This document shows positions 3,981 to 28,883 of a stretch of DNA of 35,703 nt, piece by piece. The notes beneath the pieces are model-generated. The model was not told where the DNA came from, ran no database searches, and saw only the letters and a list, made by a program, of their open reading frames with translations. The stretch comes from Anaerobranca gottschalkii DSM 13577 (GTDB lineage: Bacteria > Bacillota > Proteinivoracia > Proteinivoracales > Proteinivoracaceae), in contig NZ_FOIF01000018.1 of NCBI RefSeq assembly GCF_900111575.1, forward strand, positions 1-35,703, given 5' to 3'. Made by a program: the position numbers and the translations under genes. Positions within the stretch are counted from its first letter, which is position 1, and each line of letters begins with the position of its first letter.

Positions 3981-6422
3981 CTAAATTTTAGACCTCCTTA
4001 GCAAATTAGCATTAGTAACAACACTTATAGAACTGATAGCCATTGCCCCTTCAGCGATTACTGGATGTAATAATCCTAATATTGCCAAAGGTATGGCAAC
4101 TGTGTTGTAGAAAAATGCCCAAAATAGATTTTGTTTAATTTTATTAAAGGTAGCTTTAGAAAGTTTAACTGCTGAAACTACTGCCGTTAAGTTCCCCCTA
4201 ACTATTGTTATATCAGCTGCTTCGATGGCTATATCCGTTCCAGTACCAATGGCAATACCTACATCACTTTGGGTTAAAGCTGGAGCGTCATTTATTCCAT
4301 CTCCTACCATAGCAACTTTAAAACCTTGACTTTGTAATTCTTTAATTTTCTCTACTTTACCCTCTGGCAATACATCAGCTAATACTTCAGTAATACCTAC
4401 TTCTTTAGCTATAGCCTCTGCAGTTCTCCAGTTATCACCAGTTATCATATAGGTTTTAATACCCATTTTTTTCAGTTCACTTATCCCTTGAACTGAATCT
4501 TCCTTTAATGTATCGGCAACGGCAATAATTCCTAAAAGTTCACCTTCCGTTGCTACCATAATAACCGTTTTCCCTTGATTTTCTAAACTAACTATTTTGT
4601 CTTCATATTCCCCTATCTCCACTTTATTTTCCACCATCATTTTCCGATTTCCTGCCAAAACCACAGTATTATCGATATAACCTTTAACTCCTTTACCGGT
4701 AATACTGATGAAATTTTCCACAGATAGTGGGGAAATATTTCTCTTTTCACCGGCTTCTACAATGGCTTTAGCGATAGGGTGTTCTGAACTTTTCTCAACA
4801 CTTAAAGCTAAAGTTAGTAAATGTTGTTCATCGGTGTTTATAGGAATAATATCCGTTACTTCCGGCTTTCCTTTAGTAATAGTACCTGTTTTATCAAAAA
4901 CTATTATTTGGGCTTCTTTCATTAACTGAATAGCTTCACCTCTACGGATGAGAATGCCCTTTTCTGCACCTAATCCACTGCCAACCATTAATGCTGTAGG
5001 GGTAGCTAATCCTAAAGCACATGGACAAGCAATAACCAATACGGCAATGGTAGCGTATAAAGCTAACATTGGCCCTGATAGGTGGACATTTACCCAAGGT
5101 AAATAAGGTCCTACCTTTTCAATGGCTATCGCCATGTAATGGGGGAAAATAAGCCAAGATAAGAAAGTAAGGGTTGCTATTACTAAAACAGCAGGTACAA
5201 AATAACCCGTTACTTTATCGGCAAATTCCTGAATAGGTACCTTTGTACCTTGAGCTTCTTCTACCATTTTAATAACTTGGGCTAAAAAGGTATCTTTTCC
5301 TACTTTAGTTGCTTTAACATGAAGTACTCCTTGGAAATTAACTGTTGAACCAATTACTTCATCGTTTACCCTTTTGGTTACAGGCATTGATTCACCAGTA
5401 GCCATAGATTCATCTACAGAACTTTCCCCCCAAACTACAATACCATCGGTGGGAATTTTTTGACCTGGTTTTACCACCATAATATCACCGGGCTGAATTT
5501 CCTCAACTGCTACTTCTTTCTCTTCACCATCTACAAGCAAAATAGCGGTTTTAGCCCCTAATTCTAATAATTTCTTTATCGCTTGAGATGCTCTCCCTTT
5601 AGCCCTTGTTTCAATATATCTACCAGTTAAATGGAATGCCATAATCATACTAGCTACTCCAGCATAATTTTCCACTGGCAAGAAAAATACCATAATCCCT
5701 GTAATAAAAGCTGCTAAAGTACCAATGGCAATCAATGCATCCATATTAGCACTACCATGTTTCACAGAATTAAAAGCTGAAAGAAAAACATGGCCACCTA
5801 CCCAAAACAACACAGGAAGGGCTAATAAGACCATCCCTAAATTAAAGGATAAAGATTGATGACCTCCATGGCCGCCAGTACCCATTACGATAAACATCCA
5901 AAGGGCAGCAGGTAATGTAAAGGCCCAAGCTAATACCATCCTTTTTTTAGCTAATTTTAGTTTAATTTCATCTTTATCTAATTCATCTTTTTTTTCATCA
6001 TCTTTTATTTTCCCTTTATACCCTAATTTTTCAATTAACTTAAGGAAATCTCCTGTGCTTACTGTTTCTTTGTCGAAAATAATAGTAGCTTGATTAAGGG
6101 CTAAATTTACACTGGCCCTTTGCACTCCATCTACCTTATTAAGGGATTTTTCTACTTTATTAGAACATGCGGCACAATGCATACCTTCAATATCAATGGT
6201 TACTTTAGAAATATTATCAACAACATTGTAACCTAATTTTAGGATTTGGTTTTTAATCTCTTCAACACTAATCCTTTCATCATAAGTTATATAAGCTTTT
6301 TCGTTGGATAAATTCACCTGTGCCTGATGAATCCCATCGAGTTTTTTTAATGCTCTTTCTACTTTACTAGAACAAGCGGCACAATGCATACCTTCAATTT
6401 GTAAAATTATTTTTTTCTCCAT
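3981..6422 (-). CDS. copA: Copper-exporting P1B-type ATPase, two heavy-metal-binding domains
   Basis: 813 residues from the ATG at 6422, chosen because a strong GGAGG lies 8-12 nt upstream and the open frame beyond it covers promoter and operator. Two N-terminal metal-binding domains carry GMHCAAC (Cys 14/17 and 83/86). Then come TGES (342-345), the transmembrane CPC metal site (466-468), DKTGT with the phosphorylated Asp 510, the SEHP loop (546-549) and GDGIND (707-712). The YN pair (772-773) and MxxSS (794-798) in the last helices are the Cu(I)-ATPase signature. It pumps Cu(I) out of the cytoplasm. No copZ or csoR is adjacent. Regulation is probably by a CsoR repressor at the 6435-6449 site. 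Confidence 0.96.
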
Positions 6423-6434
6423 ACTTCTCCCTCC

Positions 6435-6449
6435 TACCCCTATGGGGTA
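6435..6449 (-). promoter_or_regulatory. CsoR-like operator upstream of copA
   Basis: Palindrome TACCCC-TAT-GGGGTA directly upstream of the copA ribosome-binding site. It matches the G/C-box dyad known for CsoR-family copper repressors. It would block the copA promoter until Cu(I) releases the repressor. Possible promoter hexamers on the minus strand lie within about 60 nt upstream (TTGACG and TAAATT, 17 nt apart), but the exact start is unsure. No csoR gene lies in the window. Confidence 0.7.
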
Positions 6450-6507
6450 TAATGTCTTCCTTTTTAATTTAGCAAATATGTTAGCTTTCGTCAATAGTAT
6501 TTGACAT

Positions 6508-9619: not shown

Positions 9620-10298
9620 CCCGTGTTCCTCCGAAGTAATAACCTACCCCCCACTTTGTCATTATGTATTTGGGGTCACTAGGGTTATCTTCAATTTTTT
9701 CCCTTATTCTCCTTACATGGACATCAACTGTTCTGACATCACCATAATATTCATATCCCCAGATTAAATCTAAGAGATTTTCTCTAGTATAAATTTTTCC
9801 AGGATGGGTTGCTAAAAGGGCTATAATATCAAACTCTTTTGCTGTTAATTCAATGTTTTTACCTCTATGTATTACTTTTCTATTGTTTAAGATTATTTTA
9901 AGATCTTTACATTCAATTTCATTTCCTAGTCCTTTACCGGTTCTCCGTAATACAGCTTTTATTCTAGCAATTAACTCCTTAGTGTTGAAGGGTTTAGTTA
10001 AGTAATCATCGGCTCCATACTCTAAGCCTAATATTTTATCAACATCATCTCCTTTAGCAGTTAACATTATTATTGGGACAGATGATTTTTCCCTTATTTT
10101 TTTACATAATGTCATCCCATCTATTTTAGGTAACATTAAGTCGAGAATGACTAAACTATAGGGATTAGCCTTAATCTTTTCTAAACCTTCTTCACCATCA
10201 AAGGCAGAATCCACTTCAAACCCTTCCTTCTTTAAACTATGGCTCAATCCCTTTACCAACAATTCTTCATCATCGATTATCAAAATTTTTTCTTTCAT
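9609..10298 (-). CDS. OmpR-family response regulator
   Basis: 229 residues from the ATG at 10298, which has AGGAGG 8 nt upstream; the open frame extends eight codons further but without a better site. Receiver domain: acidic pair at residues 9-11, phosphoacceptor Asp 53 in LVILDLMLPKIDG, the LTAKGDD switch and YLTKPF Lys. The C-terminal winged helix (about 130-229) has the RTVDVHVRRIREKIE recognition helix and ends in TKWGVGYYFGG, like WalR/PhoP. It is partner of the kinase that follows. Its start lies 29 nt inside the preceding Fe-S protein gene, indicating tight coupling. Confidence 0.95.
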   Translation of the reverse strand: MKEKILIIDDEELLVKGLSHSLKKEGFEVDSAFDGEEGLEKIKANPYSLVILDLMLPKIDGMTLCKKIREKSSVPIIMLTAKGDDVDKILGLEYGADDYLTKPFNTKELIARIKAVLRRTGKGLGNEIECKDLKIILNNRKVIHRGKNIELTAKEFDIIALLATHPGKIYTRENLLDLIWGYEYYGDVRTVDVHVRRIREKIEDNPSDPKYIMTKWGVGYYFGGTRDVY

Positions 10299-10872
10299 AA
10301 ATATCCTCCTTTTTATTTCCAACAGGACATATATCTAAACATTTTTGACAGGCCCTCAATGAATATGGTGTACAGCGGGGGATAGAAACTCCCCTTTGGG
10401 AAATCGCCTTCCCTGGACAAACTTCAATACAAGCACCACATTTAAAACAATAATCGGGGACTTTACCTCTAAAGGGTTTAATAGGAGCGTTTGTATAAAA
10501 GGCTGAAAATAAGAGATTGCAACCATAATCTTTATGTAATATACTTCTATTAAGGCCCCTTTCTCCAATTCCTGCTATTCTAGCTAATCCCCGCAAATCT
10601 TCCTTGACACTGATGGGGCTAACTCCTTGACATCGATAATTATATCTTTCTAATAAAGAAAAAGATTGGGCAAACCCTTTTCGGAGTTTGTTAAATAATT
10701 GAAAATAACTGCCCGATACATCTACTAAATTTTGGGTATCCCTTAAACCTTTAGGAAGTATTACACCGGCAATGACATATTTGGTTCCATCGGATTTTTC
10801 ACCAAAGGATACAACATCAATTGAATGTTCTTCAACGAGAATTTTTATAATGTAATCATTATACATATTCAT
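10270..10872 (-). CDS. QueG-like double 4Fe-4S cluster protein
   Basis: About 200 residues. The C-terminal third has two ferredoxin-type cluster motifs: CFKCGACIEVCPGKAI (first block) and C...CQKCLDICPVG (second). The middle (ARIAGIGERGLNRSILHKDYG) resembles the stretch before the clusters in epoxyqueuosine reductase QueG and related corrinoid or dehalogenase-like proteins. The protein is much shorter than QueG and lacks its N-terminal cobalamin-binding part, so it is not queG itself. A redox or electron-transfer role is likely; substrate unknown. Three ATG/GTG codons cluster at the start; 10872 is 6 nt from GGTG. It heads the two-component operon, overlapping the regulator gene by 29 nt, and may supply redox input to it. 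Confidence 0.75.
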   Translation of the reverse strand: MNMYNDYIIKILVEEHSIDVVSFGEKSDGTKYVIAGVILPKGLRDTQNLVDVSGSYFQLFNKLRKGFAQSFSLLERYNYRCQGVSPISVKEDLRGLARIAGIGERGLNRSILHKDYGCNLLFSAFYTNAPIKPFRGKVPDYCFKCGACIEVCPGKAISQRGVSIPRCTPYSLRACQKCLDICPVGNKKEDIYERKNFDNR

Positions 10873-10950
10873 TACCATCACCTTTTTTATATTTGTGATG
10901 ATAGTTTATAACAAAACTATAAAATATATAAATATTATTCTTTTTAAAAG

Positions 10951-11943: not shown

Positions 11944-12912
11944 TTGGGTTTAAGGTTTAGAAAAAGTATTTCATTAGGAAAAGGGGTTCGACTAATCTTT
12001 AGTAAAAGTGGCATTGGTGTTAGTGCAGGGGTAAAAGGTTACAGGGTAGGGGTAGGTCCTAGGGGAATAAGAAAAACCGTTTCCATCCCCGGAACTGGTA
12101 TTTCCTATGTAGAAGAAAAATCTTTTAAAAGTTTAGGAAGGGAAAAGAAATCAACAAATATTCCAATAGGAAATGTTCCGGCAGCAAATTCTCCAGTAGA
12201 TAATATACCCCTTAGAACTCCCAAGGGATATGGTTGGCTTTGGGGAATAATCCTAGGTTTTATCTTACTTTTCTCTATACCATTATTTGGTGTTCCCCTC
12301 TTACTAATATCTTGTTTCTACTTCTACAAAGCTTTAAAGGGCCCAGCTAATCAAATGATCAATGAATACAATAAAGGGGTTAATCAACTAAAAGGGGGAA
12401 ACTTAAGTTTTGCAGAAAAACATTTTTTAAATGTAATTAACTACAATCCTAATGATACCCTTACTTTAGTTTTCTTAACTTTTATCTATTATAGCAAAGG
12501 GGATTATCAAAAGGTTGTAGCAAATCATCCTAAAATCATTGAATATATACCTGAAGATCCAGAATTAACGTATATCCTTGCCCAAAGTTATTTTCAGATA
12601 GGGAATTATGATCAAGCAATCCCTTTACTACAACAAATTAATTCTTACGATGGGTTAAAAGATGAAGTTAATATATTATTAGGACGGTGTTTTTTAAAAA
12701 AAGGTTTATTTGAAATAGCTGTGGAACAGTTTAAAAAAGGTCCTGTGCTAAAAAGGACCATGACCCCTGAAGTAATGGAAGCTAAATATTGGTTAGGTGT
12801 TGCTTACTATAAATTAGGGGATAAGAAAAAAGCTTTAACTCAACTACAAAGGGTTTATGCTGAAGATGTTAATTACAAAGATGTAGAAAAATATATAGAA
12901 AATTTAATTTAA
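11944..12912 (+). CDS. DUF4236 domain fused to a membrane helix and TPR repeats
   Basis: 322 residues from a TTG start at 11944 (AAGGATGG upstream); the next residues give the standard DUF4236 opening GLRFRKSISLGKGVR. DUF4236 covers about residues 2-55, with SKSGIGVSAG and IPGTGISY. A low-complexity linker follows, then one or two membrane helices (about 97-125), then four or so TPR-like helical pairs (about 140-320; for example NPNDTLTLVFLTFIYYSKGDY and AKYWLGVAYYKLGDKKKAL). TPRs mediate protein contacts; the job of DUF4236 is unknown. It sits behind the LysO-type exporter and before a HesB-like gene, with no clear functional link. Confidence 0.8.
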   Translation: MGLRFRKSISLGKGVRLIFSKSGIGVSAGVKGYRVGVGPRGIRKTVSIPGTGISYVEEKSFKSLGREKKSTNIPIGNVPAANSPVDNIPLRTPKGYGWLWGIILGFILLFSIPLFGVPLLLISCFYFYKALKGPANQMINEYNKGVNQLKGGNLSFAEKHFLNVINYNPNDTLTLVFLTFIYYSKGDYQKVVANHPKIIEYIPEDPELTYILAQSYFQIGNYDQAIPLLQQINSYDGLKDEVNILLGRCFLKKGLFEIAVEQFKKGPVLKRTMTPEVMEAKYWLGVAYYKLGDKKKALTQLQRVYAEDVNYKDVEKYIENLI

Positions 12913-12943: not shown

Positions 12944-12969
12944 GAAAACCTAAGAAAAAGGAGGTTTTC
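12944..12969 (+). promoter_or_regulatory. Hairpin holding the ribosome-binding site of the HesB-like gene
   Basis: GAAAACCT (12944-12951) pairs with AGGTTTTC (12962-12969) around a 10-nt loop. The ribosome-binding site AAGGAGG (12958-12964) is partly in the loop and partly in the right arm, 9 nt before the ATG. It could control translation, or partly end the upstream transcript, but no T-run follows. Confidence 0.4.
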
Positions 12970-12973
12970 ACCT

Positions 12974-13257
12974 ATGATTGAAGTAACAAAACAAGCTATT
13001 GAAGGCTAAAAAAGGCAATTATCGCTGAAGGAAAAAACATCGAAAATATTTATTTAAGGCTTTATATGGCTATGGGTTGAGGTGGTCCACAACTACAACT
13101 TGCTCTGGAAGAGCAACCTAAATCAGATGATACTTTGTTTAGTCAAGATGGGATCAACTTTTTAGTAAATGAAAGACATCTCCCCCATTTCCAAAATTCA
13201 ACTTTAGATTATTCATCAGGAATTTTTGGAGGGCAATTTAAATTGTTAAAAAAATAA
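12974..13257 (+). pseudogene. HesB/IscA-like gene with in-frame UGA (probable selenoprotein), one frameshift
   Basis: ATG 12974 sits behind a strong AAGGAGG and encodes MIEVTKQAIE before a TAA. Restoring one base near 13004 (for example GAAGGC to GAAAGGC) joins this to RLKKAIIAEGKN and onward to the stop at 13257, giving about 95 residues. The second part contains YMAMG-U-GGPQLQLALEEQP, where U is UGA 13078-13080. HesB/IscA-like proteins have Cys in this GCGGP motif, a known site of Sec in the HesB-like selenoprotein family. A SECIS-like hairpin follows at the right distance (13100-13116). The family binds or carries Fe-S clusters. Either a selenoprotein gene with a recent or artefactual single-base loss, or a decayed gene. 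The C-terminal half shows no other damage. Confidence 0.75.
13100..13116 (+). promoter_or_regulatory. Candidate bacterial SECIS element
   Basis: Perfect 7-bp stem TTGCTCT / AGAGCAA with apical loop GGA. The first loop G is 26 nt after the UGA at 13078-13080. Bacterial SECIS elements have a short stem, a small loop starting with G, and the loop about 16-37 nt after the UGA, where SelB binds. This fits all three. Confidence 0.7.
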
Positions 13258-13260
13258 ATC

Positions 13261-13282
13261 AAGTGGGCGTTTTTGCCCACTT
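13261..13282. terminator. Bidirectional terminator between the HesB-like gene and tyrS
   Basis: AAGTGGGC (13261-13268) pairs with GCCCACTT (13275-13282), loop 6 nt, with AT-rich runs on both sides. It serves the convergent transcripts. The tyrS stop codon overlaps the right arm. Confidence 0.85.
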
Positions 13283-14507
13283 ATTTTATTAAAACTTGAT
13301 GATATACTTTTTTTCCTTTTTTAATCATAATAGCATTATCTTCAAACCACTCTAAGGTAATTACTTGATTTATATCAGTAATCTTTTCTCCATTGATGGA
13401 GATTCCCCCTTGTTGTACTAGTCTTCTTCCTTCACTCTTAGATGATGTTAAACCTGCTTCTTGTAGTAAGTCTAATACCAAAATTCCCTTTTCAAAATTT
13501 TCTTTTTCCATTTCCGTAGATGGAATAGATCCCGCTACTCCCCCTTTTTCAAACAGGGCTTTAGCAGCATCCCTAGATTTTATAGCCTCTTCTTCACCAT
13601 GGACAATTTTCGTTACTTCAAAGGCTAATACTTCTTTAGCCTTATTAATTTCTGCCCCTTGTAGTTTTTCCAATTCCCTAATCTCATCCATAGGAACAAA
13701 GGTCAATAATTTAAGGCAATTGATCACATCATTGTCATCAACATTGCGCCAGTATTGGTAAAATTCGTATGGTGAAGTTTTTTCTGGGTCTAACCAAATA
13801 GCACCTTTTTCTGTTTTACCCATTTTCTTACCTTCACTGGTAGTTAAAAGGGTAAAGGTCATACCATAGGCTGGTTTACCTTCAACTCTACGAATCAAGT
13901 CTACACCTGAAATAATATTAGACCACTGGTCATCTCCCCCTAGCTGCAAAGTACAACCATAACGGCGGAATAACTCTAAGAAGTCATAAGACTGCATTAA
14001 CATATAGTTGAATTCTAAAAAGGATAAACCCTTTTCCATCCTTGATTTAAAACATTCGGCAGTTAGCATCCGGTTTACGGAAAAATGTCTACCTATTTCC
14101 CTTAAAAACCAAATGTAATTTAAATCCATTAACCATTCAGCATTGTTTACCATTATAGCTTTACCTTCGCCAAAATCTAAAAACTTGGAGATTTGCTCTT
14201 TAAACCTTTCGCTGTTTTTCTTAATTTCTTCTTCTGTTAACATTTTTCTTATATCAGTTTTACCAGTGGGGTCTCCTACCATAGTAGTCCCTCCACCAAT
14301 TAAAACAATAGGTCTGTGACCAGCTTTTTGTAGATGGGCCATAGCCATTAATTGTAGAAAATGTCCTATATGAAGGCTGTCAGCGGTAGGATCATAGCCA
14401 GTATAAAAAGTGACTTTTTCTTTTCCTAACAACTCTTTTATTTCTTCCTCATGGGTTGTTTGTTGAATAAAGCCCCTTTCTTGTAAAACATCAAATACGT
14501 TAACCAT
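13281..14507 (-). CDS. tyrS: Tyrosyl-tRNA synthetase
   Basis: 408 residues from the ATG at 14507, which has AGGAGG 7 nt upstream; the open frame runs seven codons more but through that site. Class I signatures: HIGH at 46-49 and KMGKT (the KMSKS loop) at 228-232. [12 protein letters not shown] and [10 protein letters not shown] form the tyrosine pocket, and an S4 RNA-binding domain closes the protein (about 340-408). It charges tRNA-Tyr in the cytoplasm. Expression is controlled by the T-box leader upstream, which ends in a terminator 46 nt before the start. Confidence 0.97.
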
Positions 14508-14550
14508 TTTAAAACCTCCTCTTTTCATTTCCTAGGAAATTTAATTAAAA

Positions 14551-16860: not shown

Positions 16861-17821
16861 CTTTCAATCCCTTATAGTTAGGCTGGTAACTTTGCCCATC
16901 TGTTCCATACAAGGCTATCGTACATTTGTTTCAATCCCTTATAGGTAGGCTAGTAACGGATTTAGATTACGTGTACCGATGGAAAAAATACATGTTTCAA
17001 TCCCTTATAGGTAGGCTAGTAACTGAAAAATATGCAATACCATTCGGTGCAGAAGCATGTTTCAATCCCTTATAGGTAGGCTGGTAACTGTTTGGTACAC
17101 TCTATCACCTACCTTTCGATTAGGTGTTTCAATCCCTTATAGGTAGGCTGGTAACAAGCAGTGAAAAAACTTAAAAATTTAGAAGAAACACGTTTCAATC
17201 CCTTATAGGTAGGCTGGTAACTCGATACTATTAAACCTAGTCAAGGATACATTTTTTGTTTCAATCCCTTATAGGTAGGCTGGTAACCGAACAAAAAATA
17301 AGATTTACAACTATGCTAGAAAGTTTCAATCCCTTATAGGTAGGCTGGTAACACAGGGCTACTGCTAATCTGTCATAATTTACTGCCAGTTTCAATCCCT
17401 TATAGGTAGGCTGGTAACCTAATCCATTCAACTATATCATTGTTACCAAATCTTAGTTTCAATCCCTTATAGGTAGGCTGGTAACTTTTTCGGCAGCTGC
17501 TGCCTACCTATAGAGTATCAAAGTTTCAATCCCTTATAGGTAGGCTGGTAACGCCTTCTATATAATCACGTTTTGAAGCTCCAATATACTCGTTTCAATC
17601 CCTTATAGGTAGGCTGGTAACTTAAAAATTTTTCAAAAAAATACTTGACTCGGTATTGTTTCAATCCCTTATAGGTAGGCTGGTAACCTTTTTAGCTCGT
17701 CCACTGTTGTGCCATACTGTTGGGGTTTCAATCCCTTATAGGTAGGCTGGTAACGCAAGACTCCAACATGGTATGAACTAGATAGGTATATGTTTCAATC
17801 CCTTATAGGTAGGCTGGTAAC
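16861..17821 (-). CRISPR. CRISPR array, 15 repeats of 30 bp, 14 spacers
   Basis: Plus-strand repeat begins GTTTCAATCCCTTATAGG and ends GTAGGCTGGTAAC (overlapping parts of one 30-mer). Starts: 16861, 16928, 16994, 17059, 17126, 17192, 17258, 17323, 17389, 17456, 17523, 17592, 17658, 17725, 17792. Spacers are 35-39 bp, all different. The crRNA strand is minus: its repeat ends GGGATTGAAAC, the usual 5' handle of type I-B and III-A, and the leader promoter lies beyond 17821. Repeats at the far end have drifted (16861 has two changes; 16928 and 16994 have CTAG for CTGG), as expected for the oldest units. The I-B and III-A effectors downstream of the leader presumably share it. Confidence 0.98.
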
Positions 17822-18028: not shown

Positions 18029-18292
18029 TTATAATATATTTTCTTCTCCACCTTTTTTTATACCCATTGTTTCTATTACTTGATATTTCCTAGTAGAAAA
18101 TCTATAGATTATAACTGAATCCTTTTCTTTATCTATTATTCTTTCTAATTCCATTTTTAATTTTGTTAACCTACTTTCTGTTATTTCCCCTTCTAAAACT
18201 GAATTTTGTACCCAATATAAATATTTCCTACATGTTTTTAGCACCTTATTTACCCGCTTTTGTTCTACATCATAAACTAATATCACAAACAT
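18029..18292 (-). CDS. cas2: CRISPR integrase subunit Cas2
   Basis: 87 residues from the ATG at 18292; the open frame extends seven codons into cas1 but GGTGAT lies just before this ATG. It opens MFVILVYDVEQKRV with the conserved Asp 8, then the ferredoxin-like fold with WVQNSVLEGEI and IIYRFS. Cas2 dimer bridges two Cas1 dimers in spacer integration. Last gene of the I-B operon; 4-nt gap after the cas1 stop. Confidence 0.97.
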   Translation of the reverse strand: MFVILVYDVEQKRVNKVLKTCRKYLYWVQNSVLEGEITESRLTKLKMELERIIDKEKDSVIIYRFSTRKYQVIETMGIKKGGEENIL

Positions 18293-18296
18293 ATTA

Positions 18297-19289
18297 TCAC
18301 CATTTGGAAACAAAAGGAATGTATTCCTTTTCTTGGAGTAAATGCTTCTCTAATTTATAAAGTTCCATTCTTATTAACCATCTGTAGGAAATACTTCTAC
18401 CTAACTCTTTATGTTGAATTGTCGTCTTTAATCTTTTATCAAATTCTTCTACAAATATCCTTTTACCTTCTTCTTTTAACATGATTCCACCTAAATCATT
18501 ATCAAAATGTTTCTTTTGGATCATTTTCTTACTTAAAAGATAAAAAATCAATCTATCAACTAGTAAAGGTTTAAAGATTTCTGCAACATCTAAATTTAAA
18601 GTAAACCTCCTAAAATTAGTTGAATGTAAATACCCAATTCTAGGATCTAAATGGGTTTTATAAATCTCCCCTAAGACAGTTGTATAGAGCATGGAGTTGC
18701 CAAAACTAATCAAGGCATTTAAATGATTTTTAGGAGGCCTTTTAGTTCTTTGTTCAAACCTAAAATTTTCATCTTCAATTATTTTATCAAAAGCTTTATA
18801 GTAGGTTTCCCTGATATTTCCTTCTATTCCCATTAGCTCATCTGTTGAATCATATTCAGCAATTGATCCATAATAACCTAAAATATTATCTTCCACATCT
18901 CTAAGTTCTTTCCCTCTATTTAAATAATACCTTATAACACTCAACATATTTCTACTACTTCCTAAAACAAAGGACCTAGCTAATTTTATCCTTTTATCTT
19001 TATCTAAATAATGTTCTGCCTGTTTTAAAATCATATATCCGGAATTGTAATGTTCCCTTGGATAATAACTTCCAGTATAGTAACCATAATAATTAAAGAA
19101 ATGAAGAATAATCTCCTTTTGTGAAACAAATTCTAAAAACTTTTTATTAAGGGTTACTTCACCGAAAAAGAAAAAACTACTAATATCCTCTACCGGTAAA
19201 ACTTTTCTTCCAGCTTCTGATTGAAATAAAATTGTGTTATCTTTTCTACTAATTTCACCATCATTAAAAACATAGATATTCTTTTTCAA
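18297..19289 (-). CDS. cas1: CRISPR integrase Cas1 (type I-B)
   Basis: 330 residues from a TTG at 19289, chosen because GGGGGA lies 6 nt upstream; the open frame begins eight codons earlier. The protein opens KKNIYVFNDGEISRKDN as in type I-B Cas1. The metal-binding triad is in place: Glu 156 (MGIEGN), His 222 (GYLHS) and Glu 237 (DVAEIFKP). It cuts and joins new spacers at the leader end. It starts inside the end of cas4 and is followed by cas2, a standard adaptation module. Confidence 0.97.
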   Translation of the reverse strand: MKKNIYVFNDGEISRKDNTILFQSEAGRKVLPVEDISSFFFFGEVTLNKKFLEFVSQKEIILHFFNYYGYYTGSYYPREHYNSGYMILKQAEHYLDKDKRIKLARSFVLGSSRNMLSVIRYYLNRGKELRDVEDNILGYYGSIAEYDSTDELMGIEGNIRETYYKAFDKIIEDENFRFEQRTKRPPKNHLNALISFGNSMLYTTVLGEIYKTHLDPRIGYLHSTNFRRFTLNLDVAEIFKPLLVDRLIFYLLSKKMIQKKHFDNDLGGIMLKEEGKRIFVEEFDKRLKTTIQHKELGRSISYRWLIRMELYKLEKHLLQEKEYIPFVSKW

Positions 19290-19300
19290 AAAAATTCCCC

Positions 19301-19804
19301 CTATGCCCAACAAAATTCACTATAGGCACAATTTTTACAATACCCTATTTTTATAGCAGGTTGAGGTTTTTCTTCATATATTATCTTTAAAATATCTTTA
19401 GCACTTATCTCCACCTTTTCTATTAACTCATCATCTAAAACTACTTCTATTCGCTCCTTTTCTTTAGGAAACATTAAAACACCTGAAGAGTCTATCCCTA
19501 TTTTCTTCAATTCCCAAAGATAAAAGGCTAGTTGCATTTTAGCACTTTCTTTAAACTTTGATGATTTTTTCACTTCACCTACTATAATTTCTTTTTTCCC
19601 CTTTTTTATAACATCTATTTTTATATTTCCTACTATAACTTCCTTTCTTTTATCCCGTTCATAGCTATATTCTTGAATAAATCTACCCAAATCAAGAAGG
19701 GGATTATCTTGATTTGGGTTAATATTTCTCGCCATCAGCCAAACCTGTCTTTTACAAATATAGTAATACCACACTAAAGTACCATTTACACTAATCTCCT
19801 TCAA
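19301..19804 (-). CDS. cas4: Cas4 adaptation nuclease
   Basis: 167 residues, TTG start at 19804 with AAGGGG upstream. RecB-like nuclease core: Asp 64 (KIDVI), Glu 77 and Lys 79 (GEVKKS). Four Cys for the Fe-S cluster at 17, 156, 159 and 165 (CKNCAYSEFC at the end). It trims prespacers and fixes their PAM orientation together with Cas1-Cas2. It overlaps cas1 slightly and follows cas3 by 22 nt. Confidence 0.96.
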   Translation of the reverse strand: MKEISVNGTLVWYYYICKRQVWLMARNINPNQDNPLLDLGRFIQEYSYERDKRKEVIVGNIKIDVIKKGKKEIIVGEVKKSSKFKESAKMQLAFYLWELKKIGIDSSGVLMFPKEKERIEVVLDDELIEKVEISAKDILKIIYEEKPQPAIKIGYCKNCAYSEFCWA

Positions 19805-19826
19805 TTTATCATCCCCTTAATAAATA

Positions 19827-22148
19827 TTAGAAGATAATTGGGGTATCTAAATCCAGCCTCTTTAGACCTATATCATCACTGTATAACCTCTCTTTTTGTT
19901 CTAAAGCCATCCTAAACATCGTCTTTTCTTCAATCAATTCTTTCCTGGCAAACTCAATTGGAACAGAAACAATGTACCCATTCATTTTTCTCCTTAAATG
20001 GAATAACTTCCCCTTTCTTTGAATAGGATCAAATTCCTGTTCTAGTATTTCCTTGTATTTCTCAAATAAATCTTTACTTTCTTCATCTACTTCCAAAAAA
20101 ACATCTACATAGGTAGGCCTATCTTTAATCAAAGAAAATCCTTTAACTTTATCCATCTCCATTTCTTGCATTCCTTTAATTATTTCATTACTTTCTGTAA
20201 TTGTATTTAACCTTTTAAAAACACTATTAAAATATTCTTCTATCAGCTGTAAGAAATCCTTTTCCTCATAGCACCCACTTTTATTTAAAATCTCTTGAGT
20301 TATATTTAAAGCTATAGTGTTATAGATGTAACCTCCATACCTTTTGTTACCTTTAACCATTTTAACAACTTTAACTATACCCTTTTCTCTACTATCATTT
20401 CTATTACATCTCCCTGCCCCTTGAACTATAGAGTCCATAGGAGCTAGATCCCTGTAAACAACATCAAAATCTAAATCAACCCCTGCTTCAACAACTTGGG
20501 TTGAAACAACTATAGGTTTTTCATTTAAAATATCTTTAATTTTCTCTATCCTTTTTTTCCTTTCTTTAGGAATAATATTAGTAGATAAATACAGGAGTTT
20601 TCTGTTTAAACTAGCTTCAGCTAACCTTTTATATATTTCTAATGATTGATTAATAGTATTGCAAATAATTAGGTATGATTTATCTTCTAAGGAATCAGTA
20701 AATTCTTGGATAAAATCTTCTATCTCCATCGGTTCATCTTTATATTCAAGTTTCACCCTGTTAAACCTTTGAAAATATTTTTGATAGTCCTTTAACAACT
20801 CAATAGAATCTTGCAAAATAATTGGCTTTGTAGCGGTCATAGTGATAATCCTACAATCCAACTCCTCTGCTATTTGTTTAAACACATAATCTATAAGTTT
20901 CCAATATTTAATATCAATTGTCTGTAATTCATCAATTAAAATAATAGAACCCCTTATATTATGATATTTTTTTAACATTTTATTTCTAATTCCTATCAAA
21001 GATTCAAATAGCTGAATAAAGGTAGTTATTATCATCCCGCTATGCCAACCTTCTACTAACAACATCCCTTGATCTAAATCAAGGTGATACTTCCCACTTT
21101 TTTCTTCCTCTTTAAATAATAAGTCACTGAGGTGGTGATGTTTTAATAAATAAGGAAATATATCCTTTTCACTAATAAATTGATGATGGAGTCTTTCTAT
21201 CTCTCCATAATTTTGATCAATAATCGAAGTAAAGGGTAGGGTATAAATAATTTTCCGATCTCCACCTAACAGCTGCTGTAACCTTTTAGCTGCATAAAAG
21301 CCAGTAAGGGTTTTGCCACTTCCCGTTGGTGCAGTTATAGAGAAATACCTTCCATTTTTATATTCCCTTTCGATACCTTCCAAAACCCTTTGGAATATCT
21401 CTGACCTCATTTTGTTTAGTTCTCCTTTAGGCTCTTCAGGAAACTTTGACTTATATCCCTCTATTAGAGTGTTAAAAGGAAGGGATTGGGTATCGGGAAT
21501 ATGGGTATTAGAAGCATCTAATTTGTCTCCATCTATCAATGCTGAATAAATTAAATGGTGTAATGTATACATCCTTTCTCTCTTTATTTTTCCTCTCTTT
21601 CGCACACCATAATCTAACCGAGCTAACTTTGTTAGTACCTCTTCTATTGGTCGCTGCTCTAAGAATTCTTTAAAATATCCATGGAGACCTATTTTTTCTA
21701 GATCTTGATAAATTACTGAAAAGTTTTTCTCCATATCATCTAATTGTTTAAGAACATTTTTGATATTACCTTTTTTATCTTCATCTAGCTCATCTATAGT
21801 AAATTTCAATTTATTTGGCAAATTTTTATTTACTCTTTCTACATTGCTATGGTGATTGATTACAGCACTATAGAGAATTAGGGGAAGATAGTTTTCTTCC
21901 CCCAGTTCTTTAAAGGCAACATAGGCTGTAAACAATGCGGAGATAAAGGAATGGTGACTTAATCTTCCACTATAACCTTCTTTTAAATGTTTTTGAAAAT
22001 ATGTGGTGTATTTGCCGAAATCGTGACATTTAGCAGCTATTTCCACAGCTTTTTGATTTTCTCCAGCAAAACTAGTGGCAAGATTAGTGACATTTTGAAG
22101 ATGATCAATCAATTTTTTATTTGGGTTAATATGGGAATAGAAAATCAT
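19827..22148 (-). CDS. cas3: Cas3 helicase-nuclease (HD plus DExH) of type I-B
   Basis: 773 residues. N-terminal HD nuclease with His 42 and Asp 43 in CHDFGKYT and further His near 110-115 (INHHSN). Walker A APTGSGKT near residue 275, Walker B LIDELQ near 400 (DELQ in place of the common DEAH), MTATKP motif III, then STQVVEAGVDLDFD and QGAGRCNRND in the second helicase domain. Recruited by Cascade, it unwinds and degrades target DNA. The start at 22148 follows AGGAGG, 9 nt after the cas5 stop. Confidence 0.97.
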   Translation of the reverse strand: MIFYSHINPNKKLIDHLQNVTNLATSFAGENQKAVEIAAKCHDFGKYTTYFQKHLKEGYSGRLSHHSFISALFTAYVAFKELGEENYLPLILYSAVINHHSNVERVNKNLPNKLKFTIDELDEDKKGNIKNVLKQLDDMEKNFSVIYQDLEKIGLHGYFKEFLEQRPIEEVLTKLARLDYGVRKRGKIKRERMYTLHHLIYSALIDGDKLDASNTHIPDTQSLPFNTLIEGYKSKFPEEPKGELNKMRSEIFQRVLEGIEREYKNGRYFSITAPTGSGKTLTGFYAAKRLQQLLGGDRKIIYTLPFTSIIDQNYGEIERLHHQFISEKDIFPYLLKHHHLSDLLFKEEEKSGKYHLDLDQGMLLVEGWHSGMIITTFIQLFESLIGIRNKMLKKYHNIRGSIILIDELQTIDIKYWKLIDYVFKQIAEELDCRIITMTATKPIILQDSIELLKDYQKYFQRFNRVKLEYKDEPMEIEDFIQEFTDSLEDKSYLIICNTINQSLEIYKRLAEASLNRKLLYLSTNIIPKERKKRIEKIKDILNEKPIVVSTQVVEAGVDLDFDVVYRDLAPMDSIVQGAGRCNRNDSREKGIVKVVKMVKGNKRYGGYIYNTIALNITQEILNKSGCYEEKDFLQLIEEYFNSVFKRLNTITESNEIIKGMQEMEMDKVKGFSLIKDRPTYVDVFLEVDEESKDLFEKYKEILEQEFDPIQRKGKLFHLRRKMNGYIVSVPIEFARKELIEEKTMFRMALEQKERLYSDDIGLKRLDLDTPIIF

Positions 22149-22157
22149 AGTTTCCTC

Positions 22158-22892
22158 CTACATATATAAAATATTGGTATCCCCCACTTCATAGTAACTA
22201 TCTTCTAAATAAATGGGGATTGGATTACAATTTTCATCAAAAAGATAGGAACCTACCTCTTTAACTATTCTGTCATCTTCAAAATCCCTAGGCATTTTCT
22301 CTTTAACTAAAGCATAATCTGAGTTTAGTTTATTAAAAGCTAGGCCTTTATGGTTTATTTTGTTTAACGGTATTATGCTGGCAATATATACTAAATCATT
22401 AACCTTCTTTTCTTCAACCCTTTCCCTGCCAACATACTCTAGTACACAACTAAAGGGAGCTGCCCCCAAGTATGGTGGGAAAAAATACCTTTTATTTTTC
22501 AGCCTCTCTATAAACTGTTCTAAAAAAGTTGGGTCTATATGGGACAAATATACCCGGTATTTAAGGAAATCTCCTGCTCCTGTAACTATTTCAAAGGGTA
22601 TTTGGCTGTGATTACTAGGTTCTATAAACTCTTTTTTTGTAGTTATCTTCATGTAGTTTACAGTTTGAATGATTTTCCGGGTTTTCGTTAACTTTTGAAC
22701 AGCAATTTTTAATTTATCATCTTGGAGTTGTTGGTAATAACTATCCCTTTCAAACCCCATAACCGCTGCCACCAGACCAATTAAATTGGTCCTTGTTGGA
22801 ACCGAATAGGATAAAGAAGATGAGTTGGTATAGTATTTTCTAAAATGTCCCATATATCCAATTATGTCAAAAACAACTACTTCACTAGCCAT
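22158..22892 (-). CDS. cas5: Cas5 (type I-B Cascade subunit)
   Basis: 244 residues from the ATG at 22892 (AGGTGATAATT upstream; a GTG three codons earlier overlaps the ribosome-binding site). Opens ASEVVVFDIIGYMGHFRKYYTNSSS and continues with PTRTNLIGLVAAVMG, the Cas5 RAMP pattern of the Cas5h/Cas5b group. It caps the crRNA 5' handle in Cascade. The start overlaps the cas7 stop region. Confidence 0.93.
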   Translation of the reverse strand: MASEVVVFDIIGYMGHFRKYYTNSSSLSYSVPTRTNLIGLVAAVMGFERDSYYQQLQDDKLKIAVQKLTKTRKIIQTVNYMKITTKKEFIEPSNHSQIPFEIVTGAGDFLKYRVYLSHIDPTFLEQFIERLKNKRYFFPPYLGAAPFSCVLEYVGRERVEEKKVNDLVYIASIIPLNKINHKGLAFNKLNSDYALVKEKMPRDFEDDRIVKEVGSYLFDENCNPIPIYLEDSYYEVGDTNILYM

Positions 22893-22897
22893 AATTA

Positions 22898-23791
22898 TCA
22901 CCTAACTTCTTCAAAGGATATATCACCTAATAAATCAGTAATAGAAGCAGATTGACCATTTATTGTCATCACTAATTGAGGATGAACAAAGTAGCGTACT
23001 TTACCAATTTTATCTTTATTCTCCCTTAAAAATCCTTGTAAATTAGTAATATCTAAAGCTACTTCTGTTATATCCCTAGGACTATCAACCTTTGATTCTA
23101 GTTTAACTAATGACCTGTAATCCCCTAAAATAGTTTCACTATCTCTATACTCTACCCTCAAATAAAGTCTAGGATATTGACCAATTTTACTTCTGGTAGC
23201 TTGTAATGGAATAGCTTTAACTAAAGCTTGATCTAATTCTAAAACATCATCTTCTGTTAAATTGGTATATTTTGCCCTATTACCACTTATAACCCCTGAA
23301 AATCCAATAAAGGAATATTTTACCCGGTAATCCTTTCCAATAGCCCCTTGCTCATTTTTATCTGTGGTAGCAAATTGGGAGGTAATTGAAGCTTCAAATA
23401 TTTCAACTTTATTTAAAGATTGACCCCAATTGAATTGTACCGGTCCAGTAAAGGTTCTAGTATCTTTTTCCACAGGCATTGTGGCACCGAAAAGTCTTAC
23501 ATCGATAAATTTATTTAATAAATCATCATCGGTAAGTTTTTCTTTACCCAATTCCTCTTTTAGTTTTGTAATAATTTTTTCTGGTCTTACAGATTTGCCC
23601 TCTAATTTGCTAACAAAAATAGGATAATCCTTTTCTGATAAATAATCTCTTACATATCTTTTTAGCCTTAAATCAGAAACTAAATTGATTTCCCGCTCAT
23701 AGTCCATTCTAGGACGGTTTTCCTCATCGGGATCACCATTAGGATTTGTTAATTTAGCATCATACAAAAATAAGATTTCACTATTCTTCAT
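22898..23791 (-). CDS. cas7: Cas7 (Csh2-type) Cascade backbone
   Basis: 297 residues from the ATG at 23791 with AGGGGGA upstream; the ORF reaches seven codons further. Opens KNSEILFLYDAKLTNPNGDPDEENRPRMD, with the NPNGDP block typical of Csh2/Cas7 of subtype I-B, then LRLKRYVRDYL and RLFGATMP. Several copies line the crRNA. Overlaps the end of cas8b by 11 nt, so translation is coupled. Confidence 0.96.
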   Translation of the reverse strand: MKNSEILFLYDAKLTNPNGDPDEENRPRMDYEREINLVSDLRLKRYVRDYLSEKDYPIFVSKLEGKSVRPEKIITKLKEELGKEKLTDDDLLNKFIDVRLFGATMPVEKDTRTFTGPVQFNWGQSLNKVEIFEASITSQFATTDKNEQGAIGKDYRVKYSFIGFSGVISGNRAKYTNLTEDDVLELDQALVKAIPLQATRSKIGQYPRLYLRVEYRDSETILGDYRSLVKLESKVDSPRDITEVALDITNLQGFLRENKDKIGKVRYFVHPQLVMTINGQSASITDLLGDISFEEVR

Positions 23792-25706
23792 CAGAAATTC
23801 CCCCTTCATCATTTATCTCTTTTTTATTACCCATAACTTTTAAAGTAGAAAAACTATACCCTGATAAAATGTAATAAAGGTTTTCCATTTTATTTAACTT
23901 CCAATTTTTAATTTCTTTATCTAATAATTGTCGATGAACTGCAAAAACTCTTTCTGTCTCATAATTTAAAACTTTGTTTTGTCTTAGCTTGTCAATAATT
24001 TCATTTGATAATCTTAAAACCTTTCCTTGGTCCATACCATTGTAATTGAGCTTGTTTAAAATTGGTTTTCTCTTATTCCTTTCTAAGTACTGTTTATTAG
24101 CCACTTTACCAATTAAATAACCTAGTAAAAACATTGCTGCCTCTTGGGAATCCATTGCCATTTCCTCAAGATAACCTTTAATCTCTTCAGATAAATTAAG
24201 ATTAGTAGTATCCAACCCTTCTCCCTCCTCTATAATACCTAAATTTTGTAATACCCTAAGGTACATGTTAGACCTAATAACATCAAAATCGAGATTTCCT
24301 TCTTTTATATTAAAAGTTTTAAATTGCTCGTAATAAAGGATTTTAAACAACTTAATTTGAGTTTCGATGATCATTCTTTTTGCCAATTTGTTGCCAGTAA
24401 AGAAACTATCATAAATCTTTAATATTTTCCGAAACTCTGTAACTTCCCCTTTATTGTCTATCTTTACTGGAGTCAACCAGTAAACACTTTCTAGACCAAA
24501 ACTACTTAAATTGTATTCTGGCAAGATATTTTTAAACCTACCTTTAACATCATCAAAAGCTTTTATAATTTTGTTAAATCTAGAAGGTGCTACATCTTTG
24601 ATAAACTTTAATACTTTAGTTGAACTTTGACTTGTTTTATAGAAGATTATATTGAATAGAAAATAATTTTCTATCTCCTCATATTCTAAAAATTTTTGGA
24701 TTTCCTCTTCTATTTCTTTTAACTTTTCTACCCTTTTAGCAACATTAAAGGTTTTATTAGTTTTATCTGCAAATAGTTTTAAATCCTCTTCCTTTAAATT
24801 TGCTGGAAACAAAATATGGGGAATAACAAAGACTTTGAAAGCTGCCAGTCTAGTATCAAAGTTTTTAAAAACAAACTGTTCCCCTACTTGAAGTTTAGTA
24901 TAACAAGTCTTACACAAAAGCATATTTTTACTGTAGTTTTCTGGTTTAAAATTAGAGGGAAAATTCCATTGATTAGTTGTGTAAAACTTAATCTTCAGTT
25001 TTGTCGTATCATCAGTCAGTTCATCTCTAGAGCCACAGCCATAACAGATGCCTTTTTCAACTATTTTTACATTTGATTTTTCTTCAACTATTCTATCTAT
25101 ATATTCTTTCTTATCACTTAGCCTTTCTCCATCTATAGTAATGTAGTAAAGTTTGATACTTTTACTATTTATATCCCGTTCTTCTTTAAGATAATTATCA
25201 ATATGTTTTTTTGCATTTTTACCTAAATCCTTTAGTTTTCCCCCGGCTAATTCATTTAGTAATTCTTCTTTGTCCGGCAGTTTAGGTGAGATTTTCTTTA
25301 AATTAAGTAAGTACCTATAGCGTTTTTGTTGGCCCTTTTGTTCCCCTAAATCCCAAAAAAATTCCTGCAAAATATCCTTTAACCTATCACTTATTCCTTC
25401 TATCTCCATTTCTATCAAATTAGGGATTGTTTGGGTAATAAGATATTCTAAAGATGCAGCAGTTGTATACCATTGTGGAGAACTAGAACCATCGGCAGAT
25501 CCTACATATACCAATTCCTTTGCTGTTTCATCATCAATTTGACTTTCAATTAGCTCAATTTTTTTATTCCTAGTGTCAAAATCCAGCTGTACTACATAAA
25601 AATTGTTTCCTTTTTTGTCCTTTACATCAACCCTTTTAATTAAATCATCGATAAATTTACTGGGACTGTAGATGATATTTCCAATTTCTAAGATACTCTC
25701 TTGCAC
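23781..25706 (-). CDS. cas8b: Cas8b (Csh1/TM1802-type) large Cascade subunit
   Basis: 641 residues, GTG start at 25706 with GGGGGG upstream. A zinc-finger pair in the middle (CYGCG near 220 and CKTC near 265) and the late blocks GYLIGKVANKQY and YYILSGYSFST fit the TM1802 (Csh1) form of Cas8b. It reads the PAM and recruits Cas3. First gene of the I-B operon. It lies downstream of the intergenic block with the shared promoter word. Confidence 0.92.
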   Translation of the reverse strand: MQESILEIGNIIYSPSKFIDDLIKRVDVKDKKGNNFYVVQLDFDTRNKKIELIESQIDDETAKELVYVGSADGSSSPQWYTTAASLEYLITQTIPNLIEMEIEGISDRLKDILQEFFWDLGEQKGQQKRYRYLLNLKKISPKLPDKEELLNELAGGKLKDLGKNAKKHIDNYLKEERDINSKSIKLYYITIDGERLSDKKEYIDRIVEEKSNVKIVEKGICYGCGSRDELTDDTTKLKIKFYTTNQWNFPSNFKPENYSKNMLLCKTCYTKLQVGEQFVFKNFDTRLAAFKVFVIPHILFPANLKEEDLKLFADKTNKTFNVAKRVEKLKEIEEEIQKFLEYEEIENYFLFNIIFYKTSQSSTKVLKFIKDVAPSRFNKIIKAFDDVKGRFKNILPEYNLSSFGLESVYWLTPVKIDNKGEVTEFRKILKIYDSFFTGNKLAKRMIIETQIKLFKILYYEQFKTFNIKEGNLDFDVIRSNMYLRVLQNLGIIEEGEGLDTTNLNLSEEIKGYLEEMAMDSQEAAMFLLGYLIGKVANKQYLERNKRKPILNKLNYNGMDQGKVLRLSNEIIDKLRQNKVLNYETERVFAVHRQLLDKEIKNWKLNKMENLYYILSGYSFSTLKVMGNKKEINDEGGISDEE

Positions 25707-25741
25707 ATAATCCCCCCCTTTTTTTGTTAATCTTTTCCTTA

Positions 25742-25777
25742 ATTATTCTACAAAGAAAGAAAAATTCCTTTGTCGAA
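25742..25777 (-). promoter_or_regulatory. Promoter region of the type I-B operon: shared 13-mer and overlapping dyad
   Basis: On the minus strand the word TTTGTAGAATAAT (25742-25754) contains TAGAAT, a likely -10. It recurs exactly before the type III-A operon (33353-33365). It overlaps an imperfect inverted repeat, TTCGACAAAG / CTTTGTAGAA (9 of 10, arms 25746-25755 and 25768-25777), a candidate operator. No good -35 is visible at the right spacing, which suggests activator-dependent transcription. Confidence 0.55.
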
Positions 25778-25869
25778 AAAGATAGAATTTTGTCTTTTAG
25801 TTGAATTTTTTATTTTTTATCTGCTTATATTATATAAGATTAAATTACATATTTCTTTACAAAAAATAT

Positions 25870-25903
25870 GTGAAAATAGCAGGGAAAAACCTGCTATTTT
25901 CAC
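25870..25903 (-). terminator. Terminator of the type III-A operon
   Basis: Perfect 14-bp stem (25870-25883 with 25890-25903), 6-nt loop, followed on the minus strand by a T-rich stretch. It lies 13 nt past the csm5 stop and separates the III-A from the I-B operon. Confidence 0.85.
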
Positions 25904-25916
25904 AATAAAGTTATAG

Positions 25917-27017
25917 TCAATTTGTATCGATAGTAATTTTAACCCAACCTAAAGGTCTTATTTTTTTGTTTATATCACTATATACCCTCGTAGTTGGAAA
26001 AACAGTTTTAGACTTAGAATTTGAAAAAATCTCATTTTTTATCCTTTCTATATTTTCTTCTTTTAATTTATTAGATATAGTATTATCAAAATATGTTTTG
26101 CCCCATCCTATTCTCATTATAGCTTCTTGTGTGTTGTCTAATTTTTCTACAGATTGTATAAGATTTTCATAAAAACTTATTAAAGCTTTTTCTCCCTTTT
26201 CTTTTTTTAACATTCTTATTTCTTTAGAAATATTAACCTTAGTGTATTCATTAATTAACTTTAATAATCCTTTCTCTTCTCCTTTTTTTAAGAAAAGAAA
26301 ATCCTTTATATCTTCGTGATAATCCTCACCTAAAGTTTTGATAGTTAAAATTGTTTTTGCTCCTTCCTTAATTACTTCACGGACTATTGGTATAGAAGAA
26401 CCTTTATTATTGATAATGTTTATCCTTTTTAAATTAGTTACTACTAAATCACTTTCTGTGAACAACTGACTATCCGAAACTTGTAAATGTTTTAAAATAT
26501 CCCTGTCTCCCTTATATAAATAGTTTTCACCTATATAATGTTTCTCTCCCCTTTTTTTATCATCATCTTTATTTTTAAAAATGTATTCATATAATAACTT
26601 TGTATCATCATCTTCTTCAAAAAGGTTAAAGATAATAGCTGTTCTAATAGCTCCTTTTATAGTACTTCCTGGTATATAGGGTGCATTATTGGTTTTAATA
26701 TGAAGGGATATTTGTTTATTTATTACTCCTTCAGTTTCCACTGCACTTAAAACAGCCTTTTTAAAATCAATCTTGCAACTAATCAAAAAAGAAGTCAAAT
26801 TATATGAATTGCTATTTCTTTTGCTTTGTTCTTTAATTATTTTGATATACTCCTCTAACAAAGATTCACCTTGTGGATGTTTTTCAATTTCATCATATAA
26901 TTTATCATGATCTATATAATAAACTTTATTATTATCATAAATATAATCTAGAAATTGGGATGCTTTTTGTTCAGAGCCAATACTTACTGGCGTTAATGTT
27001 TCTAAATTAACCTTCAT
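25917..27017 (-). CDS. csm5: Csm5 (type III-A)
   Basis: 366 residues. RAMP protein with N-terminal TLTPVSIGSEQK and the glycine-rich block NAPYIPGSTIKGAIRTAI near residue 115. Csm5 caps the 3' end of the crRNA in the Csm complex and helps in its maturation. ATG at 27017 overlaps the csm4 stop by four bases (ATGA); GGAGGTG upstream. Last gene of the operon. Confidence 0.93.
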   Translation of the reverse strand: MKVNLETLTPVSIGSEQKASQFLDYIYDNNKVYYIDHDKLYDEIEKHPQGESLLEEYIKIIKEQSKRNSNSYNLTSFLISCKIDFKKAVLSAVETEGVINKQISLHIKTNNAPYIPGSTIKGAIRTAIIFNLFEEDDDTKLLYEYIFKNKDDDKKRGEKHYIGENYLYKGDRDILKHLQVSDSQLFTESDLVVTNLKRINIINNKGSSIPIVREVIKEGAKTILTIKTLGEDYHEDIKDFLFLKKGEEKGLLKLINEYTKVNISKEIRMLKKEKGEKALISFYENLIQSVEKLDNTQEAIMRIGWGKTYFDNTISNKLKEENIERIKNEIFSNSKSKTVFPTTRVYSDINKKIRPLGWVKITIDTN

Positions 27018-28060
27018 CTATTCACCTCCCCAAAGGGAATCAAAAATGCCCGTCCATATTGAAATATAGGATGTTTATTAAATACATCATATTGAGTTTC
27101 AAGTATATTCCCTTCAATATTTCCAGAAAATATACTACCTTCTTTAATAACTCTAATTGTTTTTTTTCTATAACTTCTCCCTGTAGTAGAATATATATAC
27201 CCATTTCTTTCTTCAAGATCATAATACATTAACTTAGATAACTCTTCTTTTTGAGGAATTACGCTAGATAAACTCATAAATAAATTTCCATTGTTGTTGA
27301 TTAAATTTTCCTCAAATTGTTCTTCTACTACTTTTTCAAAAATACCATGAAATAAACTTCTTTTACCACCTATACCCTCATCTGCTAATAATCTCACCAC
27401 TGCTTTAAATTTTAATGATACTTCTTCCCTACAAATAAAGTAGTAAAAGGGTTTTAAAGTTAAATTACCTTTTTTAAAGTAATTAACTTCTACTTCTTCT
27501 TGAAAAAAGAAATTTTCAGATGTATCATCAAGGCGAGATATCACAACTTTAGGTAAAGTCTTTTTTTGTAACAATTTAACATTATCAAGATTAGTTGTAA
27601 TATTTAAACCTGCTAATTCTTCTTTTGTATATATATAACTACCACCAATAGAAATAAAGGGATTAAAATCAAATTCAAGTTTTTCATTATTTTGATTCCA
27701 TTTAAATTGAAGTTCCTTAAAAGCTTCTATAGAAACATACCTAATCCTTTTATATTTTTTATTGGTTGATATTTCGTCATCATTGGAATTACTATTATCA
27801 ATAGGAAGAATAGGTTTGGGTAAAAAAAGTATTTCCCTTTCTTTTTCACCGGCAATAATTTTTATTCCTGGCATCATTGAAGAAATAGTCACTTTTTTTA
27901 ACTCATCAAAAAATTGATCATTTTTATCAAACATTAACACTCCACAATTATACAATGATGAAAATAGTTGATCTGATGAAAAAAAATCTTTTAAATTTCT
28001 ATTACTATCCCCTATATGAAATTTAGTTAAGTTACTAGGATATAGTTTAAAAATCAACAT
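27014..28060 (-). CDS. csm4: Csm4 (type III-A)
   Basis: 348 residues. Opens MLIFKLYPSNLTKFHIGDS and then has DQLFSSLYNC, as in Csm4. Late in the protein, GIGGKRSLFHGIFE is the RAMP glycine loop (G-x-GGK-x-S). It binds the crRNA 5' handle and anchors Cas10. ATG 28060 with AGGAGAG upstream; one nucleotide separates it from the csm3 stop. Confidence 0.93.
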   Translation of the reverse strand: MLIFKLYPSNLTKFHIGDSNRNLKDFFSSDQLFSSLYNCGVLMFDKNDQFFDELKKVTISSMMPGIKIIAGEKEREILFLPKPILPIDNSNSNDDEISTNKKYKRIRYVSIEAFKELQFKWNQNNEKLEFDFNPFISIGGSYIYTKEELAGLNITTNLDNVKLLQKKTLPKVVISRLDDTSENFFFQEEVEVNYFKKGNLTLKPFYYFICREEVSLKFKAVVRLLADEGIGGKRSLFHGIFEKVVEEQFEENLINNNGNLFMSLSSVIPQKEELSKLMYYDLEERNGYIYSTTGRSYRKKTIRVIKEGSIFSGNIEGNILETQYDVFNKHPIFQYGRAFLIPFGEVNR

Positions 28061-28061
28061 A

Positions 28062-28883
28062 TTACATCTCTCCTAGAACTTCTTTAATCTTATCAGATAT
28101 ATTCGGAACTTCATTTAATGTAATTTGACCTTTATCTTTATCTAACAGGGATATCGTTTCTTTATTTTCTAAATATACTGGAATAGTTTTTATTGAAATT
28201 TCATCAATAATAAATTGTACTTTACCGTATCCCCGGGAACCATTACCTCCTAAATAATCATCTTCTAACAACCTTAAACCGTAAATTAATTTTTCAAACC
28301 TGTCTATATCTTCATTCTCCATAACATTATAAATTAATTGAAAATCAAATTCTGCACCTTGAGGAACTCTTTCTGTTTGTCTCGGCATACCAGCCTTTGA
28401 AGTCAATCTATTTATTGAGTTTTCCCATTTACTTTCTGTATAAATTAATTGTAAATTTTTATATTCCCCTTCTTTTTTCAGCATTTTTTCCCTTGTTTTT
28501 TCATTTAAAAAAGCATCCCTTACAATTAATCTTGTAGGACCTTTTCTTTTATCTACATTAGCCCCGGTTCCGAAAATTACGCAAACTTCACATTCTCCAC
28601 AGTTACAGATATAAGTTTCTTTACTATTATCATCACTATTTTCTTCTTTTTCTTCTTTTTCTTCTTTTTTTATATCCATTATCTCTTGCAATTTTGTTTT
28701 TTCTAATAATGCACGTATTTTGCCTTTTAATGAAGAACCTGGAATATATGGAACTCCCTCAGAAGTCTTAATAACACTATTATCTATATCACCAATAGCA
28801 ACATCTGTTTTTGAACCCCCAATATGTAAACCTGTCATAGCTACTATTTTACCTTTGACAAATAATTTGCCTTTTAATTGCAT
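28062..28883 (-). CDS. csm3: Csm3 backbone and target-RNA nuclease (type III-A)
   Basis: 273 residues. LHIGGSK near 19-25, then GDIDNSVIKT, in which Asp 34 matches the catalytic Asp 33 of characterised Csm3, then GVPYIPGSSLKGKIR. Copies stack along the crRNA and cut the bound RNA every 6 nt. An acidic-lysine insert (about residues 73-90) precedes a compact Cys cluster CNCGECEVC (about 95-103) that leads into the usual FG turn and may bind zinc. GGGAGG precedes the ATG; 2 nt after the csm2 stop. Confidence 0.95.
   Translation of the reverse strand: MQLKGKLFVKGKIVAMTGLHIGGSKTDVAIGDIDNSVIKTSEGVPYIPGSSLKGKIRALLEKTKLQEIMDIKKEEKEEKEENSDDNSKETYICNCGECEVCVIFGTGANVDKRKGPTRLIVRDAFLNEKTREKMLKKEGEYKNLQLIYTESKWENSINRLTSKAGMPRQTERVPQGAEFDFQLIYNVMENEDIDRFEKLIYGLRLLEDDYLGGNGSRGYGKVQFIIDEISIKTIPVYLENKETISLLDKDKGQITLNEVPNISDKIKEVLGEM

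Follow-up and report, generated by a model that had tools for sequence, protein, structure and literature searches.

The window analysed here is the whole 35,703-nt stretch from Anaerobranca gottschalkii DSM 13577 (GCF_900111575.1, NZ_FOIF01000018.1, positions 1-35,703 of the forward strand). Between a gene for a DUF4236 and TPR protein and the gene for tyrosyl-tRNA synthetase (tyrS), it contains a small hesB-like gene, called copy a below, with a UGA codon inside and a frame that is broken near the 5′ end. Homologues were searched for in 61 genomes, the present one (G000) included. Within the genus, the comparison was with one further genome, G001, which comes from another species, not another strain; G002 belongs to the same family. 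The features of the locus are as follows.

11944-12912, plus strand: upstream neighbour, DUF4236 and TPR protein, a synteny anchor found in the same order in G001 and G002.
12960-12964, plus strand: ribosome-binding site GGAGG, 9 nt 5′ of the ATG, read directly from the sequence.
12974-13009, plus strand: 5′ part of hesB, ATG and 10 codons (MIEVTKQAIEG), then TAA at 13007-13009; the N-terminus agrees with relatives.
13003-13008, plus strand: site of the one-base loss (frame 0 to -1), located to within this range by the frames and the gap-free orthologue match.
13006-13257, plus strand: remaining hesB frame (-1), 83 residues including selenocysteine (Sec), stop TAA at 13255-13257, recognised by PF01521 and the homologue search.
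13078-13080, plus strand: UGA selenocysteine codon in G-U-G-G-P.
13100-13116, plus strand: bacterial SECIS hairpin (stem of 7 bp, loop GGA), placed 26 nt downstream of the UGA.
13261-13282, no strand: between hesB and tyrS, an inverted repeat of 8 bp that resembles a terminator, read by eye.
13281-14528, minus strand: tyrosyl-tRNA synthetase, the second anchor, also downstream in G002.

Elsewhere in the window (16928-17821 and 18029-28883), a CRISPR array with at least 14 CRISPR-DR2 repeats lies beside cas sets of type I-B (cas2, cas1, cas4, cas3, cas5, cas7, cas8b) and type III-A (csm5, csm4, csm3) on the minus strand.

Translated in the ordinary way from its ATG, hesB yields only 11 residues, because the frame is broken at about 13003-13008; UGA aside, the path from start to stop is interrupted by the TAA at 13007-13009. 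The rest of the protein is encoded in the -1 frame, which reads LKKAIIAEGKNIENIYLRLYMAMG-U-GGPQLQLALEEQ... from 13006 and ends in FKLLKK before the stop codon at 13255-13257. When joined, the 5′ and 3′ pieces align with the orthologue of G002, which is intact, and the alignment needs no gap near the junction, so one missing base suffices for the lesion; the match to this orthologue (E 7e-28) is far beyond chance. A preliminary description of this DNA had proposed a single missing base near 13004, and we can now place it at 13003-13008 as the only visible lesion. Everything 3′ of it is intact, including the UGA, the SECIS hairpin, the conserved residues and the stop codon. The same description expected gene callers to overlook the gene, which agrees with the list of open reading frames of the window. 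Restart of translation in the -1 frame was rejected as a way around the lesion: the ATG codons before the UGA lie solely within the last four codons preceding it, and a restart would therefore drop the first strand and the helix.

Another way to keep the gene expressed though apparently broken would be a doubly recoded mRNA, with a -1 shift at 13004-13009 that bypasses the TAA and then selenocysteine insertion at the UGA. The conservation of the downstream frame would fit such a shift, but there is no slippery heptamer at GAA-GGC-TAA, and GGC slipped back by one base becomes AGG, a misfit for the same tRNA. A lengthening of the A-run in transcription still leaves the TAA, since the T before the run and the first two As already form this codon. 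For the same reason, a wrong number of As in the run is not the cause of the lesion, and programmed or transcriptional slippage at the run was ruled out. The examined relatives cross this point in a single frame, so there is no conserved recoding signal. We consider double recoding highly improbable.

The gene has matches in 21 of the 61 genomes, the own one included, at 22 places beyond the window gene. Against PF01521 it scores 28.8 bits (cut-off 26.3) when the UGA is read as Cys, and 24.8 bits, below the cut-off, with the sequence as found in the genome. The assignment to a HesB-like family in the preliminary description is thus borne out, and so is its reading of the UGA as a selenocysteine codon followed by a SECIS hairpin. 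Among the relatives that keep the site (n=21), the codon is UGA in 18 and Cys in 3, and no other residue occurs there. The hairpin consists of a perfect 7-bp stem (arms 13100-13106 and 13110-13116) and the loop GGA at 13107-13109, and a 48-nt stretch that includes a second small hairpin has a folding energy of -10.7 kcal/mol. We note that the hairpin alone proves nothing, because 69 of the 1076 TGA triplets of the window (6%) are followed by a comparable one and its folding z-score is -0.86; hairpin strength was dropped as stand-alone evidence. These two figures would suit a reading in which an old pseudogene of a Cys-type hesB acquired the UGA as an ordinary stop mutation, with a hairpin behind it by coincidence. 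That reading conflicts with the finding that 18 of 21 relatives carry UGA at precisely this position, and with a covarying hairpin that is present in nearly all relatives with its distance from the UGA unchanged or almost unchanged. Across 18 loci, both sides changed in 4 of 8 pairs, and 91.7% of the SECIS cells were paired, compared with 28.5-50.7% in slid versions; none of 500 shuffles reached these values. The covariation, like the Pfam match, is far beyond chance. The window hairpin adds a compensatory change of its own, from G-C to U-A in the third pair. Judged by this conservation, an ordinary stop is already refuted, and we assign it practically no probability. The comparative evidence indicates that the UGA at 13078-13080 is genuine selenocysteine coding with a conserved RNA signal.

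The selenium machinery, which the preliminary description had taken as a check on its reading, was found and is complete in the present genome. It comprises selA, selB, tRNA-Sec (selC, anticodon TCA) and a Sec-type selD with its own UGA; a grdB gene with a UGA is also present. In G000, contig C42 (L042) ends with selD sequence that recurs at the start of C50 (L043), which bears tRNA-Sec. Because of this repeat at both contig ends, the two contigs seem to overlap and to carry one selA-selB-selD-selC cluster. In the window itself, the region 3981-6494 encodes a P-type ATPase of the copper type. It has two metal-binding domains, and one of them matches NF041115, a model for a UxxU metal-binding (seleno)protein.

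The window and G002 share the gene order LysO-TPR-hesB-TyrS; the hesB of G002 is intact and separated from tyrS by a transposase. In G001, the codons behind the UGA follow directly after the TPR gene, with an inverted repeat similar to that at window 13261-13282 downstream of them (by eye) and a transposase-like frame beyond. A protein tree groups this remnant with the window hesB (98/95). The preliminary description treated the window gene as a selenoprotein gene with a one-base frameshift and counted further inactivating changes in close strains against its reading. Such changes are indeed seen in the G001 orthologue, which belongs to another species and not to a strain: a deletion has removed the 5′ half together with the UGA, a single base is lost near the 3′ end as a second frameshift, and the SECIS loop has changed from GGA to AAA, losing its guanines. 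They leave the selenocysteine assignment unaffected, and a reading as a working gene is not supported. Further decay is suggested near the locus, as the G001 orthologue (L046:2613-2874) of a 203-aa frame at window 10270-10881 is matched only in part and seems truncated.

Between the present species and G001, the orthologous piece of copy a has a dN of 0.082 and a dS of 0.94 over 43 codons; for comparison, the dN is 0.187 for the neighbouring TPR gene and 0.165 for LysO. These substitution rates indicate strong purifying selection on the piece. Because of this selection, inactivation should be recent in both lineages, and a pristine sequence behind the lesion is what one would expect of a recent, one-lesion pseudogene.

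G001 also contains an intact HesB-like selenoprotein gene, copy b, which is 46% identical and lies beside trxB, trxA, degV and a 4Fe-4S gene; the protein tree does not place copy b reliably. The matching neighbourhood in the present genome is on contig C12 of G000. All that is left of copy b there (L059:1974-2340) is a 3′ remnant of its last 22 codons, 86% identical, which comes right after a small ferredoxin-like frame. Decay is therefore reciprocal, as G001 has lost most of copy a and kept copy b, and the present genome has copy b as a remnant. In the present species, the frameshift in copy a comes on top of the deletion in copy b. Together with the decay in G001, the copy b remnant lowers the chance that the window copy is still expressed.

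The same findings have to be weighed against an error in the draft sequence. If the missing base were present in the organism, hesB would work, and copy a would be kept here and copy b in the sister species. In the sister one copy, and only one, is intact, and such a tidy reciprocal retention is plausible. The intact sequence 3′ of the lesion, the compensatory U-A pair in the SECIS stem and the strong purifying selection seen for the piece shared with G001 would all suit a working gene with a sequencing error, and hesB would be the only A-type protein that PF01521 detects in the genome. However, broken frames are rare elsewhere. Besides hesB, none was found in the window genes that can be compared with relatives, and the approximately 70 ABC domains of the genome include one broken locus, with several stops. 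Draft errors therefore look rare, and one in this small gene is unlikely; a mistake in the length of the A-run, moreover, is excluded by the TAA that starts before the run. We regard a draft error as the chief alternative, though an unlikely one overall. The broken ABC transporter domain (G000 C30:14891-15338) appears to be a further pseudogene.

We believe that the one-base lesion is likely real rather than a sequencing artefact, and that the window hesB, which belongs to a known selenoprotein family, probably became a pseudogene very recently. Two genes for HesB-like selenoproteins were probably present in the ancestor of the genus: copy a, flanked by the TPR gene and tyrS, and copy b, beside degV and the 4Fe-4S gene. 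Later loss would have been piecemeal: the present genome would have lost copy b by deletion and copy a by frameshift, and the sister species would have lost copy a by deletion and kept copy b. The locus would thus offer a snapshot of selenoprotein gene loss, in which two copies decay reciprocally and by different lesions in sister species that retain the selenocysteine machinery. It reveals no new mechanism. Losses between sister genomes have already been described for HesB-like selenoproteins, with three loss events in Table 1 of an earlier study (PMC1794560). Annotation pipelines that pass over genes with an internal UGA would probably miss both the gene and the remnants.

Compared with known systems, the working form of the window protein would have a small A-type fold and contain one selenocysteine but no cysteine. 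It belongs to the same sequence family as the IscA/SufA/ErpA carriers (TIGR00049, PF01521), with selenocysteine at the position of their first conserved cysteine. Unlike these carriers, the window branch is missing the C-terminal Cys-Gly-Cys, so IscA-like cluster binding should not be assumed. Of the three conserved cysteines of IscA/ErpA, which include this CGC motif, the window copy has none; the selenocysteine position aside, it contains no cysteine at all, and the name IscA-type Fe-S carrier is therefore unsuitable. The role of the working protein would presumably be in redox chemistry or metal binding. In a further genome (G003, L050:9031-10202), a hesB-like selenoprotein gene is directly upstream of a thioredoxin-reductase-like gene on the same strand. 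This neighbour and the thioredoxin genes near copy b of G001 give a hint of a redox role.

The HesB-like selenoproteins form a recognised family (PMC1794560), whose motif is UxGP (PMC13188914). The window hesB misses the cut-offs of the two NCBIfam models, with 38.5 of 85 bits for TIGR01911 (HesB_rel_seleno) and 20.2 of 66.35 bits for NF038090 (IscA_HesB_Se). Three intact relatives that were tested also score below both cut-offs, which suggests a divergent branch and not a defect of this copy. The window branch thus differs from the known HesB-like selenoproteins in falling under the curated cut-offs, and the window copy in being frameshifted and without cysteine. It resembles them in being a small HesB/IscA-like protein of an anaerobe, with selenocysteine in G-U-G-G-P and a bacterial SECIS element just behind it.
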